A stretch of DNA of 35,028 bases, from positions 1 to 35,028 of IMG/VR virus record IMGVR_UViG_3300048440_000240. One strand, 5' to 3'. Below are positions 26,572 through 31,142 of this stretch, in pieces. Origin of the DNA: a virus. The notes below the pieces were generated by a model. That model ran no database searches. It saw only the letters and a list, made by a program, of their open reading frames with translations, and was not told where the DNA came from. Each line of letters starts with the position of its first letter. Position 1 is the first letter of the stretch. Position numbers and translations under genes: made by a program.

Positions 26572-27159
26572 ATGGGATCACACGCAGAGGATTGCAGTAG
26601 TTTAATAAGATTTATGGATAGCATGGATTCAAAAATTGAGCGGATGAGCAATACGCCAATTGTTGACATATCACACAATCTAAAAACAAAAAAAGCGGCA
26701 GCCATTAAAAAGCAAAAAGAGGACACCGCAAAAGCGCTTAAAGCGGCGATGGCGTTTGATTTTTCTAAAGTCAAAAAAAATAAAAAGCCATTTGTTAAAA
26801 AAGTATTCGTCGCTGGCATGACATCGACTAAAAAAGCCGCGCTTTTAAAAAAAGTCATTGCTTTGCATAAAGCAAGCACGCCATTAAATGATATAGCCGA
26901 AAATCTAAAAATTAACAAACAGACGGCCCGCATGTATTTGCTGAGATCAGGTCACAAGCCAATTCGGAGCGTAAAAATTACAAAAGGGATGCAAGATAAA
27001 GTTAATCTTGCTATTAAATATCACAAGCAGGGCATTCCATTGTGCGACATCGTGCAAAAAGTAAAAATTGATAAAAGAACCGCCAAACGGTATTTAATAA
27101 AAGCCGGGCACAATCCAATTCTAAAAAAGCGCGGTCCAGAAAAAAAAGGGTCAAAGTGA
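26572..27159 (+). CDS. Tandem helix-turn-helix DNA-binding protein
   Basis: 195 aa. Residues 89-130 (AALLKKVIALHKASTPLNDIAENLKINKQTARMYLLRSGHKPI) and 140-182 (MQDKVNLAIKYHKQGIPLCDIVQKVKIDKRTAKRYLIKAGHNPI) are two copies of the same HTH unit about 50 residues apart. They resemble HTH modules of resolvases and transposase-like regulators. The tail is basic (KKRGPEKKGSK). Its stop (27157-27159) overlaps the GTG of the methyltransferase gene and lies next to the ATG of the embedded ORF, so it may couple both. Role likely transcription control; substrate unknown. Confidence 0.7.
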   Translation: MGSHAEDCSSLIRFMDSMDSKIERMSNTPIVDISHNLKTKKAAAIKKQKEDTAKALKAAMAFDFSKVKKNKKPFVKKVFVAGMTSTKKAALLKKVIALHKASTPLNDIAENLKINKQTARMYLLRSGHKPIRSVKITKGMQDKVNLAIKYHKQGIPLCDIVQKVKIDKRTAKRYLIKAGHNPILKKRGPEKKGSK

Positions 27160-28115
27160 ATGAGTTACATTTATTTGCAGGAGCAGGGGGAGGAATTCTC
27201 GGCGGACAGTTACTTGGACATATCACAGTCTGTGCTGTTGAAATTGAAAAATACCCAAGACAAGTATTATTGCAGCGACAACGAGACGGAATCTTGCCAA
27301 AGTTTCCAATCTGGGACGACGTTTGCACATTCGACGGTAGACCGTGGAGAGGAACAGTTGACGTTTTGGCAGGAGGATTCCCATGCCAAGACATTAGTGC
27401 AGCAGGTAAAGGAGCAGGAATTGCCGGAGCACGTTCGGGATTGTGGAAAGAGTATGCGCGAATTATTGACGAAATACGGCCTCGCTTTGTCTTTGCCGAA
27501 AACTCACCATTGCTTCGCACTAGGGGACTTAGAGTTGTCCTCGAAGATTTGGCCGCGCTGGGGTATGATGCTCGATGGTGCGTGCTGGGAGCTAGGGATG
27601 TCGGTGCGCCCCATAAAAGAGATCGAATGTGGGTCTTGGCTTACTCCAACTGTGCAAGACAGCAGCAAGGCAACAAAACGATGGAGAGAGAATTTTCAGA
27701 ACAACTTAACCGCTCAAATTTTAACGCCGAGCAAATGGCCAACGCCATGCACAAGGGATTACAAAGGGATAAATGCACCAGAAGGACTTATCCGCAAGGA
27801 CGGCAAGAGTCGAATGGATCAACTTCCGAATGCAGTGGCTTATGGTGGCAGCAAGATCCAGCAGACTTACCCGACTCCGAGATGTTTTATGCACAAAGAT
27901 GCTCTGAAGGATCGGGGGAAGTCAAACTTAGGGGAAGTGATAAACGAAAAAGAGCAAATGACGAAAACGGGCCAACTAAACCCTGCGTGGGTCGAGTGGC
28001 TAATGGGGTGGCCAATAGGGTGGACAGACTTAAAGCCATTGGAAACGGACAAGTACCGCAATGTGCAGCAATGGCATTCAGAATTTTATCAAAAGGACTA
28101 ATATGCGGAAAATAG
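27156..28115 (+). CDS. dcm: C5-cytosine DNA methyltransferase
   Basis: 319 aa, GTG start. Motif I LHLFAGAGGG (4-13), motif IV with the catalytic cysteine GGFPCQDIS (73-81), motif VI FAENS (113-117), motif VIII APHKRDRMWVLA (151-162), and motif X GRVANGVANRVDRLKAIGNGQVPQ (279-302), so the enzyme looks complete. It would transfer a methyl group from AdoMet to C5 of cytosine, protecting phage DNA from host restriction. The stretch between VIII and X (target recognition) is polar and low in hydrophobic residues. A second gene (27160-28101) lies wholly inside it in the +1 frame. It overlaps the resolvase start by 13 bp. Confidence 0.92.
   Translation: MNELHLFAGAGGGILGGQLLGHITVCAVEIEKYPRQVLLQRQRDGILPKFPIWDDVCTFDGRPWRGTVDVLAGGFPCQDISAAGKGAGIAGARSGLWKEYARIIDEIRPRFVFAENSPLLRTRGLRVVLEDLAALGYDARWCVLGARDVGAPHKRDRMWVLAYSNCARQQQGNKTMEREFSEQLNRSNFNAEQMANAMHKGLQRDKCTRRTYPQGRQESNGSTSECSGLWWQQDPADLPDSEMFYAQRCSEGSGEVKLRGSDKRKRANDENGPTKPCVGRVANGVANRVDRLKAIGNGQVPQCAAMAFRILSKGLICGK
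27160..28101 (+). CDS. Embedded +1-frame protein of the LNPxWVEWLMGxPxGWTDL family, 313 aa
   Basis: ATG at 27160, 4 nt after the methyltransferase GTG, sharing the AAGGG ribosome site at 27146-27150. It runs 313 codons without a stop inside dcm. Motifs known to me from phage proteins annotated as hypothetical or methylase-associated: THHCFALGDL...WPRWGMMLDGACWEL (115-145), SWLTPTVQD (159-167), KWPTPCTRDYKG (192-203), YPTPRCF (237-243), SNLGEVIN (255-262), GQLNPAWVEWLMGWPIG (271-287). The motifs at residue 280 onward equal the shifted reading of dcm motif X. Function unknown; perhaps a partner or specificity factor of the methyltransferase. Confidence 0.75.
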   Translation: MSYIYLQEQGEEFSADSYLDISQSVLLKLKNTQDKYYCSDNETESCQSFQSGTTFAHSTVDRGEEQLTFWQEDSHAKTLVQQVKEQELPEHVRDCGKSMRELLTKYGLALSLPKTHHCFALGDLELSSKIWPRWGMMLDGACWELGMSVRPIKEIECGSWLTPTVQDSSKATKRWRENFQNNLTAQILTPSKWPTPCTRDYKGINAPEGLIRKDGKSRMDQLPNAVAYGGSKIQQTYPTPRCFMHKDALKDRGKSNLGEVINEKEQMTKTGQLNPAWVEWLMGWPIGWTDLKPLETDKYRNVQQWHSEFYQKD

Positions 28116-28597
28116 GAATAGACACCGGGAAGCATGGCGGCATTGTCGCGCTGAACTCGAACAATGCCATTATTGGCAAATGGGTCATGCCATTAGACCA
28201 AGGCGGCGAAATAGACCTGAAATCGATTGATGTCATATTCAAAGGATTCAGGCCGTCGGTTTACGGCGATGCGATTGTCACGATTGAGGATCCGGGAAAG
28301 CACGCAAAAAGCAGCCAAGCAATCGGCGGCATGCGGTACGGATTCGGGATAGTCAAACAAGCGTGCGTCTCAAATGGCATAAGTTTCCACACAACCAGCA
28401 GCCGCGTTTGGCAGTCCTATTATTGGACTAATCGAGACGACAAAACGACAAAAGAGAAAGCGCTTGAAGTAGCATACGACATATGGCCGGATGAAACATT
28501 TTTACATCCAGGCAAACCGCGCAGCAGAAAGGCGCATGATGGCTTAGTGGATGCCGCACTGATTGCGCTTTATGGGATAACTTGGATATATGATTAA
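28103..28597 (+). CDS. RuvC-like Holliday junction resolvase
   Basis: 164 aa from ATG 28103; the longer in-frame start at 28061 would lie deep in the overlapping pair. RNase H fold motifs: IGIDTGKHGGIVAL with D7, TIEDPGKHAKSSQAIGGMRYGFGIV with E62, and RKAHDGLVDAALIALYG with D146 and D150. This fits phage RuvC-like nucleases that cut four-way junctions before packaging. It overlaps the methyltransferase end by 13 bp. Confidence 0.85.
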   Translation: MRKIGIDTGKHGGIVALNSNNAIIGKWVMPLDQGGEIDLKSIDVIFKGFRPSVYGDAIVTIEDPGKHAKSSQAIGGMRYGFGIVKQACVSNGISFHTTSSRVWQSYYWTNRDDKTTKEKALEVAYDIWPDETFLHPGKPRSRKAHDGLVDAALIALYGITWIYD

Positions 28598-28946: not shown

Positions 28947-31142
28947 ATGAAATACGAAACATTTATAAAACAGAAAAACAAACAATCAGATAATTATGGA
29001 TTTGATCCATTGCCACTTATTGCGCCATTATTTGATTGGCAAAAGCACATTTTACAATGGGCAGTAAGAAAAGGCCGATGCGCATTGTTTGAAGATTGCG
29101 GACTTGGCAAAACTGTACAGCAATTAGAATGGGCATCGCAGGTATTTAGAAAAACTGGCGGCAGCGTCTTAATTTTAGCACCGCTTGCTGTTGGCGAGCA
29201 GACTAGAATGGAAGGTAAAAAATTTGGTATAGATATTAAAGTTATAGCATCTGACGATGAAATTAATCAGCCTGGCATTTACATTACTAATTATGAAAAA
29301 TTAGATCATTTTGATTGTTCAATATTTGCCGGAGTAGTACTAGACGAAAGCTCAATACTTAAAAGCTTTACAGGTAAAACAAGGAAAGCATTGACTGCAT
29401 ATTTTAAAGATACTCCTTACAGGTTATGTTGCACTGCGACACCATCGCCCAATGATTACACAGAACTAGGACAGCACGCAGATTTTTTAAGCATTTGCAC
29501 ACCGGCTCAAATGCTTTGCACGTATTTTATTAATGACACATTCAATACAGGGGATTGGAGACTTAAAAAACATGCAGAAGATGAATTTTGGCAATGGCTA
29601 GCATCATGGGCTGCATGTGTATCAAAGCCATCCGATTTAGGATATCCGGACGATGCATACAATTTGCCAAAGTTGCACATGAATGATATTACTGTAAAAG
29701 TTGATCAATCCAAAGAAACAGGCGATGATTTATTTAGAATTGCGACATTGAGCGCAACAACTATGCATAAAGAAATGCGTATAACTGCACCAGCTAGATG
29801 CGATGCAGTTGCTAACATGGTTAACAATTCAAATGAATCTTGGATTGTATGGTGCAATACAAATCTGGAATCAGATGAACTTAAAAAACGCATAATTGAT
29901 GCAGTTGAAGTAAAAGGTAGCGACAAGCCATCTGTTAAACAAACAAGATTGTCAGATTTTACACAAGGCAAAGTCCGTGTAATTATAACAAAGCCAAGCA
30001 TTGCAGGATTTGGATTAAATTGGCAACACTGCAACAATGTAGCATTTGTTGGATTGAGTTATTCATTTGAGGATTTTTATCAAGCTTTGCGTCGATCTTA
30101 TAGGTTTGGACAAAAAAAAGAAGTAAATGCTTACATCGTGCAAGCCGAGACTGAAGGAGCAATTATTCAATCAATAAAACGAAAAATCAAACAGCATGAA
30201 ACAATGCAACAATCTATGAAAAAAGCAGCTGCAGAACTAAAAAACGAAAAAACTGAATCAATTAACGCTAAGACAAATATTGATTTGTATGAAGGCAACG
30301 GATGGAAAGTATATCATGGCGATTGCGTTCGGGTAGCACGCGAAAAAATAGCAGATCAATCAATCGGTTTTTCTATATTTTCTCCACCATTTGCAGATTT
30401 ATTTACATATTCAGCGGATCCGCAAGATATGGGAAATTGTAAAGATATGGATGAGTTTATGAAGCATTTTGATTATTTGATTGCTGAAATTAAACGCATA
30501 ATGATACCAGGCAGAGAAGTTGCAGTTCATTGCGTTGATTTACTATCTACAAAATGGAAGCATGGAAGCATTCAATTGCAGGATTTTTCTGGCGAAATAA
30601 TACGCGCATTTTGGAACCATGGCTTTTTGTTTCATTCAAGGATTACAATTTGGAAATCGCCAGTTACTGAAATGCAACGAACTAAAGCTCATGGATTGCT
30701 TTACAAAACATTAAAAAAAGATAGCTCATCGAGTAGAGTCGGAGTGCCAGACTATTTGCTAGTTTTTAGAGCACCAGGAGAAAGCAAAATACCTGTCACA
30801 AAATCGCCAGACGATTATAGCGTTGATTGGTGGCAAGAAGTAGCATCTCCAGTTTGGATGACAGTAGATCAAGGGCGGGTATTAAATAAAAATGGAGCTA
30901 GGGATCACGCAGATGAAAAGCATATTTGCCCACTACAATTAGACGTAATTGAGCGAGGTATTGAGTTGTGGAGTAATCCTGATGATTTAGTATATAGTCC
31001 TTTTACTGGAATTGGATCAGAAGGGGATGGCGCTTTGTCATTAGGTCGTCAATTTGTTGGCAGTGAGTTAAAAAAAAGCTACGCAAAACAAGCTGCTGAT
31101 AATTTGAAAAACATTAATGCACAAACGACATTAAACATTTAG
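28947..31142 (+). CDS. SNF2-like helicase fused to an N4/N6-type DNA methyltransferase
   Basis: 731 aa. The N-terminal ~420 residues are an SF2/SNF2 helicase: Walker A FEDCGLGKT (48-56), Walker B VVLDESS (130-136), CTATPSPND (162-170), late motifs KPSIAGFGLNWQHCNN and YQALRRSYRFGQKKEVNAY. The C-terminal part has the permuted (beta-class) amino-methyltransferase order: FSPPF (478-482, the catalytic SPP[FWY] form usual for N4-cytosine enzymes), then AdoMet motif YSPFTGIGSEG (about 682-692). Such fusions occur in phages and may methylate while translocating. The whole gene is AT-rich with TTA and AAT codons, unlike its neighbours, suggesting recent transfer. Confidence 0.85.
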   Translation: MKYETFIKQKNKQSDNYGFDPLPLIAPLFDWQKHILQWAVRKGRCALFEDCGLGKTVQQLEWASQVFRKTGGSVLILAPLAVGEQTRMEGKKFGIDIKVIASDDEINQPGIYITNYEKLDHFDCSIFAGVVLDESSILKSFTGKTRKALTAYFKDTPYRLCCTATPSPNDYTELGQHADFLSICTPAQMLCTYFINDTFNTGDWRLKKHAEDEFWQWLASWAACVSKPSDLGYPDDAYNLPKLHMNDITVKVDQSKETGDDLFRIATLSATTMHKEMRITAPARCDAVANMVNNSNESWIVWCNTNLESDELKKRIIDAVEVKGSDKPSVKQTRLSDFTQGKVRVIITKPSIAGFGLNWQHCNNVAFVGLSYSFEDFYQALRRSYRFGQKKEVNAYIVQAETEGAIIQSIKRKIKQHETMQQSMKKAAAELKNEKTESINAKTNIDLYEGNGWKVYHGDCVRVAREKIADQSIGFSIFSPPFADLFTYSADPQDMGNCKDMDEFMKHFDYLIAEIKRIMIPGREVAVHCVDLLSTKWKHGSIQLQDFSGEIIRAFWNHGFLFHSRITIWKSPVTEMQRTKAHGLLYKTLKKDSSSSRVGVPDYLLVFRAPGESKIPVTKSPDDYSVDWWQEVASPVWMTVDQGRVLNKNGARDHADEKHICPLQLDVIERGIELWSNPDDLVYSPFTGIGSEGDGALSLGRQFVGSELKKSYAKQAADNLKNINAQTTLNI

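Follow-up and report, generated by a model that had tools for sequence, protein, structure and literature searches.

A locus of a tailed phage encodes, with a probability that we put at about 0.88, a single C5 cytosine DNA methyltransferase composed of two chains that are read from the same DNA in two frames, a catalytic chain (alpha) and a target-recognising chain (beta). Conserved motif IX is missing from alpha and is carried by beta, which makes the two proteins most likely two subunits of one enzyme. The locus lies on a 35,028-base virus record from IMG/VR, the whole of which is referred to here as the window; the other genes on the record are those of an ordinary tailed phage, including terminase, portal, protease, tape measure, RecT and primase. 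A preliminary description of the window, made from its letters, had proposed that the two overlapping frames encode a modification pair. The pair is supported, but with motif IX in beta the partners are most likely two subunits rather than an enzyme and its companion.

Results

The alpha frame (27156-28115, 319 amino acids) extends from a GTG at 27156 to a TAG at 28113-28115, and nested within it, in the +1 frame, beta (27160-28101, 313 codons) extends from an ATG at 27160 to a TAA at 28099-28101. Both genes lie on the plus strand, as do all the starts, motifs and modules located below. The stretch common to the two frames, 27160-28101, comprises 942 bases, exactly as the preliminary description had given it, and beta spans about 98% of alpha. 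The start codons form a tandem GTGAATG (27156-27162) in which the beta ATG (27160-27162) follows four bases after the alpha GTG (27156-27158), and an upstream gene with helix-turn-helix motifs (26572-27159, same strand) has its own TGA stop (27157-27159) between them. A weak Shine-Dalgarno-like sequence, AAAAAAAAGGG (27140-27150), is probably common to both start codons. At the opposite end lies a RuvC-like resolvase reading frame (28061-28597, phrog_1770). With the listed start at 28061 three frames would overlap; the ATG at 28103, directly after the beta stop, is probably the better choice.

The tandem in the form NTGAATG is found in 67 of 118 homologous alpha genes, with Shine-Dalgarno-like motifs ahead of 60 of these 67 starts, and in many members that have no tandem the beta ATG sits five bases ahead of the alpha start. 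Alpha genes that start with Met-Asn-Glu/Asp encode the asparagine at position 2 with AAT in 66 cases and with AAC in none, counts that come from related sequences and hence do not represent 66 independent events; over the rest of the same genes the ratio of AAT to AAC is 578:808. The choice of AAT, which is silent in alpha, by itself creates the beta ATG. Coupling to an upstream gene through its stop codon was considered as a general rule and rejected, as a reading frame of at least 50 codons ends at the TGA of the tandem start in only 29 of the 67 cases and the other two frames together have 17 such open frames.

One alternative is that the +1 frame is a non-coding shadow, kept open by the conserved residues of alpha and by base composition, since overlapping frames can stay open by chance. 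In the window the +1 frame contains 0 stops and the +2 frame 25. Synonymous shuffling of the alpha codons introduces 7.8 ± 1.8 stops into the +1 frame, recoding of alpha with the phage's own codon usage introduces 10.5 on average, and under neither scheme was any of 20,000 recodings free of stops. Among 118 distinct homologous alpha genes from IMG/VR, a set that is biased towards beta because well over half of its loci were found with beta, the +1 frame is stop-free in 104; the mean number of stops per gene is 0.14 compared to 5.3 expected, and 16.3 in the +2 frame. Over the first 90 codons the +1 frame is stop-free in 105 of the 118 genes compared to 24 expected. The loci found by alpha patterns alone give the same picture as the full set. 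Stops in the +1 frame or in alpha do occur at a few loci. The frequent stops among homologues that would have spoken against a second gene are thus not seen, and the +1 frame is a second gene, not a shadow, as the preliminary description had held.

How well the +1 translation is conserved was compared with synonymous shuffles (z-scores of 3 to 43 per stretch), but this measure was dropped as evidence because it is not frame-specific: the same test gives similar z-scores in the +2 and antisense frames, because double coding freezes the silent sites of alpha. That this simple test also responded in control frames is a point in favour of a shadow. We rely on overlap-aware counts, in which each change is assigned to a class according to what it does in the two frames; 31 pairs of loci were used, with no locus in more than one pair. 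The resulting ratios are 0.34 [0.32-0.37] for beta (dNN/dNS) and 0.28 [0.25-0.30] for alpha (dNN/dSN), compared to 1.29 for the same calculation in the +2 control frame. These values come from a simple counting method and from pairs that retain some phylogenetic dependence, and the small number of sites at which changes are silent in both frames are saturated. Purifying selection acts on both frames, as the overlap-aware check suggested in the preliminary description was meant to establish. The balance between the frames can be followed along the locus with the ratio dNS/dSN, that is, alpha-changing and beta-silent divergence over alpha-silent and beta-changing divergence. It amounts to 0.12-0.48 over motifs I-VIII of alpha, rises to 3.45 after motif VIII, 3.07 in the variable stretch and 4.66 in the motif IX stretch, and falls to 0.19 over motif X. 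Constraint is thus handed over from the alpha frame in I-VIII to the beta frame in the modules and motif IX, and once more to the alpha frame at motif X. The pattern is the same, though the intervals are wider, when the analysis is confined to the ten pairs of alpha-selected loci.

Within beta, dNN/dNS is 0.22 over alpha codons 130-160, which correspond to the beta core, and the first ~95 residues are barely constrained as amino acids (0.6-0.9). The first 90 codons are nevertheless kept open, and this, together with the choice of AAT, indicates that beta is read from near the alpha start. The first ~95 residues probably form a lead-in under loose constraint, and in view of this some members may start beta at a more internal site. 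The weakly constrained N-terminal third is a second point that a shadow would explain, and a third is that the WGMM of beta is partly forced by the LGYD of alpha. The same dependence affects the assignment of the +1 protein to a phage family by its motifs in the preliminary description: the family is real, but LGYD partly dictates the WPRxGxM motif, so that motif recognition alone is weak evidence. Against these points stand the recodings, none of which stayed open, the open frames of the homologues, the overlap-aware contrast between beta and the +2 frame, the stronger constraint on beta than on alpha over the variable and motif IX region, and the homology of beta to the C-terminal half of other methyltransferases described below. 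We consequently give practically no credence to the non-coding alternative and return to a two-gene locus.

Alpha is a C5 cytosine methyltransferase and carries motifs I-VIII and X. In order, it contains motif I (LHLFAGAGGG, AdoMet binding, 27165-27194), motif IV (GGFPCQD, with the catalytic cysteine, 27372-27407), motif VI (AENS, 27495-27515), motif VIII (HKRDRMW, in APHKRDRMW, 27603-27644) and, directly 3' of motif IX of beta, motif X (RLKAIGNGQVP; DRLKAIGNGQVP..., 28023-28079), all placed by alignment and coordinates. Invariant columns in an alignment of 56 alpha sequences are F7, G9, G11, P76, C77, E115, N116, R155, R157, G296 and N297, and thus include F and G columns of motif I. Alpha matches phrog_363 (8.7e-73) among PHROGs and PF00145 in Pfam (E=1.7e-34), the latter over residues 3-222 only; in bacterial genomes where the nested type occurs as well, the match of ordinary single-chain enzymes to PF00145 covers 1-322. 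Alpha aligns to M.HhaI over residues 4-168 only, and to canonical enzymes up to about residue 168 and then weakly at motif X. Motif IX was sought in the alpha frame and is absent. The preliminary description was therefore right about motif I, PCQ, EN, motif VIII and motif X, and its statement that the main frame holds all key motifs does not extend to motif IX. In the AF2 model of alpha, residues 1-165 and 299-315 are mostly confident and the variable region 170-290, the place expected for the small domain, is mostly disordered; Foldseek matches the model to M.HhaI over ~172 columns. Judged by sequence and by this predicted structure, alpha is without the small domain for target recognition and without motif IX, and the combination of a recognition domain and motif IX in one chain that characterises single-chain enzymes is not found in it.

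Beta consists of an array of "WPTP" modules followed by LNPxWVEWLMGxPxGW, preceded by a conserved core, SLPKTHHCF...WPRWGMMLDGACWE (residues 111-144, 27490-27591), which overlaps alpha motifs VI-VIII and has the invariant residues P132 and G140. Three putative target-recognition modules follow, of the WLTP type (27634-27735), the WPTPCTRDYKG type (27736-27867) and the YPTPRCFMHKD type (27868-27975), and after them the motif IX equivalent, LNPAWVEWLMGWPIGWTDL (27976-28032), which shows the strongest constraint in the beta frame. Relatives have one to five modules, and the same module types recur at other positions and in arrays of other size. By analogy, the WPTP modules would be recognition domains. 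The +1 protein does belong to a real phage family, as had been supposed: it matches phrog_1008, labelled "DNA methyltransferase", over residues 62-292 (7e-23) and phrog_26627 (7e-15), two clusters that each of the 86 aligned beta sequences matches as well. Searches of beta against Pfam and NCBIfam found no family, a Pfam search with its relatives, among them the ones that extend as far as motif X, found nothing, and neither did a PDB sequence search with the beta profile.

The link from beta to other methyltransferases is provided by single-chain enzymes of actinophages, in which motifs I-VIII, PTP modules, a RLNAAFAEWMMGWPAGW-like motif and GNG all lie in one frame and which align end to end with ordinary C5 enzymes (Pfam 1-347). 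In hhalign comparisons the part of beta comprising the modules and motif IX matches these enzymes with a probability of 96.4 (E 1.3e-9), and its motif IX matches them over 17 columns (E 1.2e-7). The motif IX profile compared directly with ordinary bacterial enzymes gives no significant match (probability 0.3); the connection to ordinary enzymes runs via the actinophage proteins. On the strength of these profile alignments, the C-terminal half of beta is homologous to the recognition and motif IX part of single-chain enzymes. An AF2 model of beta alone has a pLDDT of 53 with only the motif IX helix confident, and it was left out of the fold search; such a poor model fits a chain that would fold only on alpha, but is no positive evidence of it.

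The order of the segments on the window DNA, namely motifs I-VIII in the alpha frame, modules and motif IX in the beta frame (27634-28032) and motif X in the alpha frame (from 28023), is the same as in the actinophage single-chain enzymes. This collinearity of the motif-bearing segments, along with the existence of single-chain relatives, could suggest that programmed frameshifting produces one fused chain, which would start with I-VIII of alpha, shift by +1 to the modules and motif IX of beta and then shift back to motif X. Each chain would, however, need two opposite shifts. Moreover, the +1 frame is open from the very start and not just after motif VIII, the beta ATG is kept by the exclusive use of AAT, and the beta core that overlaps alpha motifs VII-VIII is itself under selection. 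Fusion by frameshifting is for these reasons extremely unlikely. As to the origin of the two genes, a single-chain gene would acquire the layout seen in the window through two compensating frameshifts, and in the reverse course the single chain may have arisen by fusion of an overlapping pair.

It is also conceivable that alpha is active alone and that beta is a separate protein, such as an anti-restriction protein, a regulator of alpha or a DNA-binding protein. The Firmicute phages MM1 and PWc, which carry a complete canonical alpha as well as a nested +1 reading frame, speak for such an arrangement. In the family of the window, by contrast, alpha has neither motif IX nor a folded small domain, and the C-terminal half of beta is homologous to exactly the part that alpha is missing. 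In every locus examined beta is accompanied by alpha, apart from two that are cut by a contig end. An independent function of beta is, on this evidence, very unlikely.

We return to the two subunits of one enzyme and the way in which they would work. Ribosomes would enter at one site and start either alpha at the GTG (27156) or, as we infer, beta at the ATG (27160). Alpha would provide the large domain with AdoMet binding and catalysis (motifs I-VIII and X) and beta the small, DNA-facing part with the recognition modules and motif IX, and the two chains would assemble into the active enzyme in analogy to M.EcoHK31I and M.AquI. The enzyme would methylate cytosines of the phage DNA at sites chosen by the beta modules. 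There may be several target sequences, probably one per module if multispecific phage enzymes are a guide. The methylation would then protect the phage DNA from host restriction. The same phage carries a second modification enzyme in the window at 28947-31142, a protein of 731 amino acids with an SNF2-type helicase and an N6/N4 DNA methylase domain (PF00176, PF00271, PF01555).

Relatives of beta occur in at least 598 viral stretches and, searched for with a beta motif, in at least 315 stretches of bacterial and archaeal genomes. Layouts were surveyed in 223 entries, made up of the listed IMG/VR loci, the loci in prokaryote genomes and the window, which is counted twice. In 205 of the 223, motifs I-VIII and X lie in one frame and motif IX in the +1 frame. 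Seven entries (L044, L045, L047, L061, L128, L145, L185) resemble M.AquI in that alpha ends after motif VIII and motif X follows motif IX in the beta frame. The remaining entries are truncated or broken, and none of the 223 has I-VIII and IX within one reading frame. At six loci (L048, L072, L102, L180, L184, L208) an in-frame stop lies between VIII and X and motif X is found in a separate alpha-frame reading frame, with beta open; motif X would be a third chain there, or the gene is decaying.

Related forms are present in the named phages Acinetobacter ABMM1, Burkholderia BcepC6B, Escherichia ESSI2_ev129 and fTaEco01, and Paenibacillus Diva. The enzyme is split after motif VIII in the mycobacteriophages Arturo (gp76/gp75) and Catdawg (gp6/gp5), and all motifs lie in one chain in Gordonia Leonard gp5, Propionibacterium PFR2 and Mycobacterium JoeyJr; the Arturo and Catdawg pairs and Leonard gp5 are intermediate forms. 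Leonard (L264, 1129-2688 and 1469-1903) has PTP modules in both frames: five are in the alpha frame and two in the +1 reading frame, which looks like a module array interrupted by a frameshift. In Stenotrophomonas phage SBP5phi2 (L266, 1244-1855) an unannotated beta-like +1 reading frame lies inside an alpha labelled "hypothetical protein"; it has hardly any module, and LNPCFGDWVMGWVTGW replaces the usual motif IX. For the most part alpha alone is annotated and beta is not, the annotated nested pairs being Diva gp49/gp50 ("g49 internal gene"), fTaEco01 TE1_031/032 and Streptococcus phage MM1 orf13/orf14.

MM1 (L260, 1348-2505 and 1499-1924) and Weissella phage PWc (L267, 1129-2166) have complete canonical C5 enzymes with motifs IX and X and a putative nested +1 reading frame that ends in LSDILE...YFLS/YYLS and bears in MM1 the label "C5 methyltransferase beta subunit". 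A WGMM-like +1 sequence in these enzymes was considered as proof of an old shared beta core and rejected, because the +1 reading of ELGYDVEW in alpha gives NWGMMLNG with suitable codons. The m5C enzymes of Paracoccus prophages, which have relaxed specificity, were considered as tested relatives and dropped, the homologue Pyei1 p05 being a 2-kb gene that has no match to beta.

Discussion

The small-chain gene of the C5 methyltransferase M.EcoHK31I lies inside the large-chain gene in another frame, and its beta is shorter than that of the window. The window shares this nesting, with beta inside alpha in the +1 frame, and by its motif layout it likewise has I-VIII and X on alpha and IX on a second chain. 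M.EcoHK31I, which has the target YGGCCR, is described in PMC3404938 as a two-polypeptide enzyme that needs both chains (Lee, Kam and Shaw 1995, via PMC3404938). The same account places I-VIII and X on the large chain and motif IX only on the small chain, and reports the target-recognition domain as predicted on the large chain. The window differs in that its putative recognition modules, as judged by selection and homology, lie on beta, and, as far as descriptions can be compared, in that beta covers ~98% of alpha and the start codons are 4 bases apart. M.AquI (CYCGRG) is a C5 enzyme split after motif VIII into alpha and beta, with IX and X on the small chain (PMC3404938). The window enzyme is also in two chains, but its motif X stays on alpha and it is thus not of the M.AquI type, which Arturo gp76/gp75 and Catdawg gp6/gp5 appear to represent.

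Several further systems share part of the layout. In the window, three module-like repeats stand in series before motif IX of a solitary phage enzyme, and the array is on a separate chain in an overlapping frame. The multispecific phage enzymes SPR and phi3T, which are single chains, reportedly have a series of recognition modules, ~40 residues each, ahead of motif IX. In Diva, fTaEco01 and MM1 a beta-like reading frame lies inside alpha in the +1 frame as in the window, but beta starts 88-184 bases inside alpha, and in MM1 alpha is complete and beta has no motif IX. The entries phrog_1008 and phrog_26627 are sequence clusters, and the label of phrog_1008 makes no mention of overlap or of a subunit role.

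M.EcoHK31I thus already provides an example of a C5 enzyme in two chains in which motif IX, and no other motif, is on the small chain. What is new in comparison, as far as the searched literature with its few subscription papers shows, is the near-complete overlap with starts four bases apart, the apparent location of the recognition part on beta, the shuffling of a module array in a doubly coded stretch, the handover of constraint between frames and the extent of the arrangement in phages. The arrangement is therefore less exceptional than the preliminary description had supposed: the two frames are used in the same way at more than 200 homologous loci, a few phages have annotated nested or overlapping pairs, and M.EcoHK31I, which that description had missed, is a characterised two-polypeptide precedent.

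Conclusions

At this locus there is very good evidence for two long genes with nearly all their bases in common, for which the two halves of an enzyme would provide the functional reason. The handover of selection between frames is visible along the sequence, which may make the family a benchmark for the detection of overlapping genes. Because most annotations omit beta, many of the "DNA methyltransferases" listed in databases are probably only one half of an enzyme. A clone of alpha with changed codons would no longer encode beta, and its product would probably be inactive. Should the modules be recognition domains, the family provides a modular collection of cassettes for target recognition.

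More broadly, we consider the chances about even that these loci represent a widespread class of phage enzymes in which the gene of the catalytic subunit houses that of its own specificity subunit, which is exchangeable and built of several modules, with modules gained, lost and swapped between phages while both frames stay open. If this is true, each protein would be functional where the other is filler, and the two would dominate the sequence in turn. The stoichiometry of the subunits would be set by two start codons four bases apart, and combinatorial switching of targets inside a doubly coded gene would constitute a new mode of specificity evolution.
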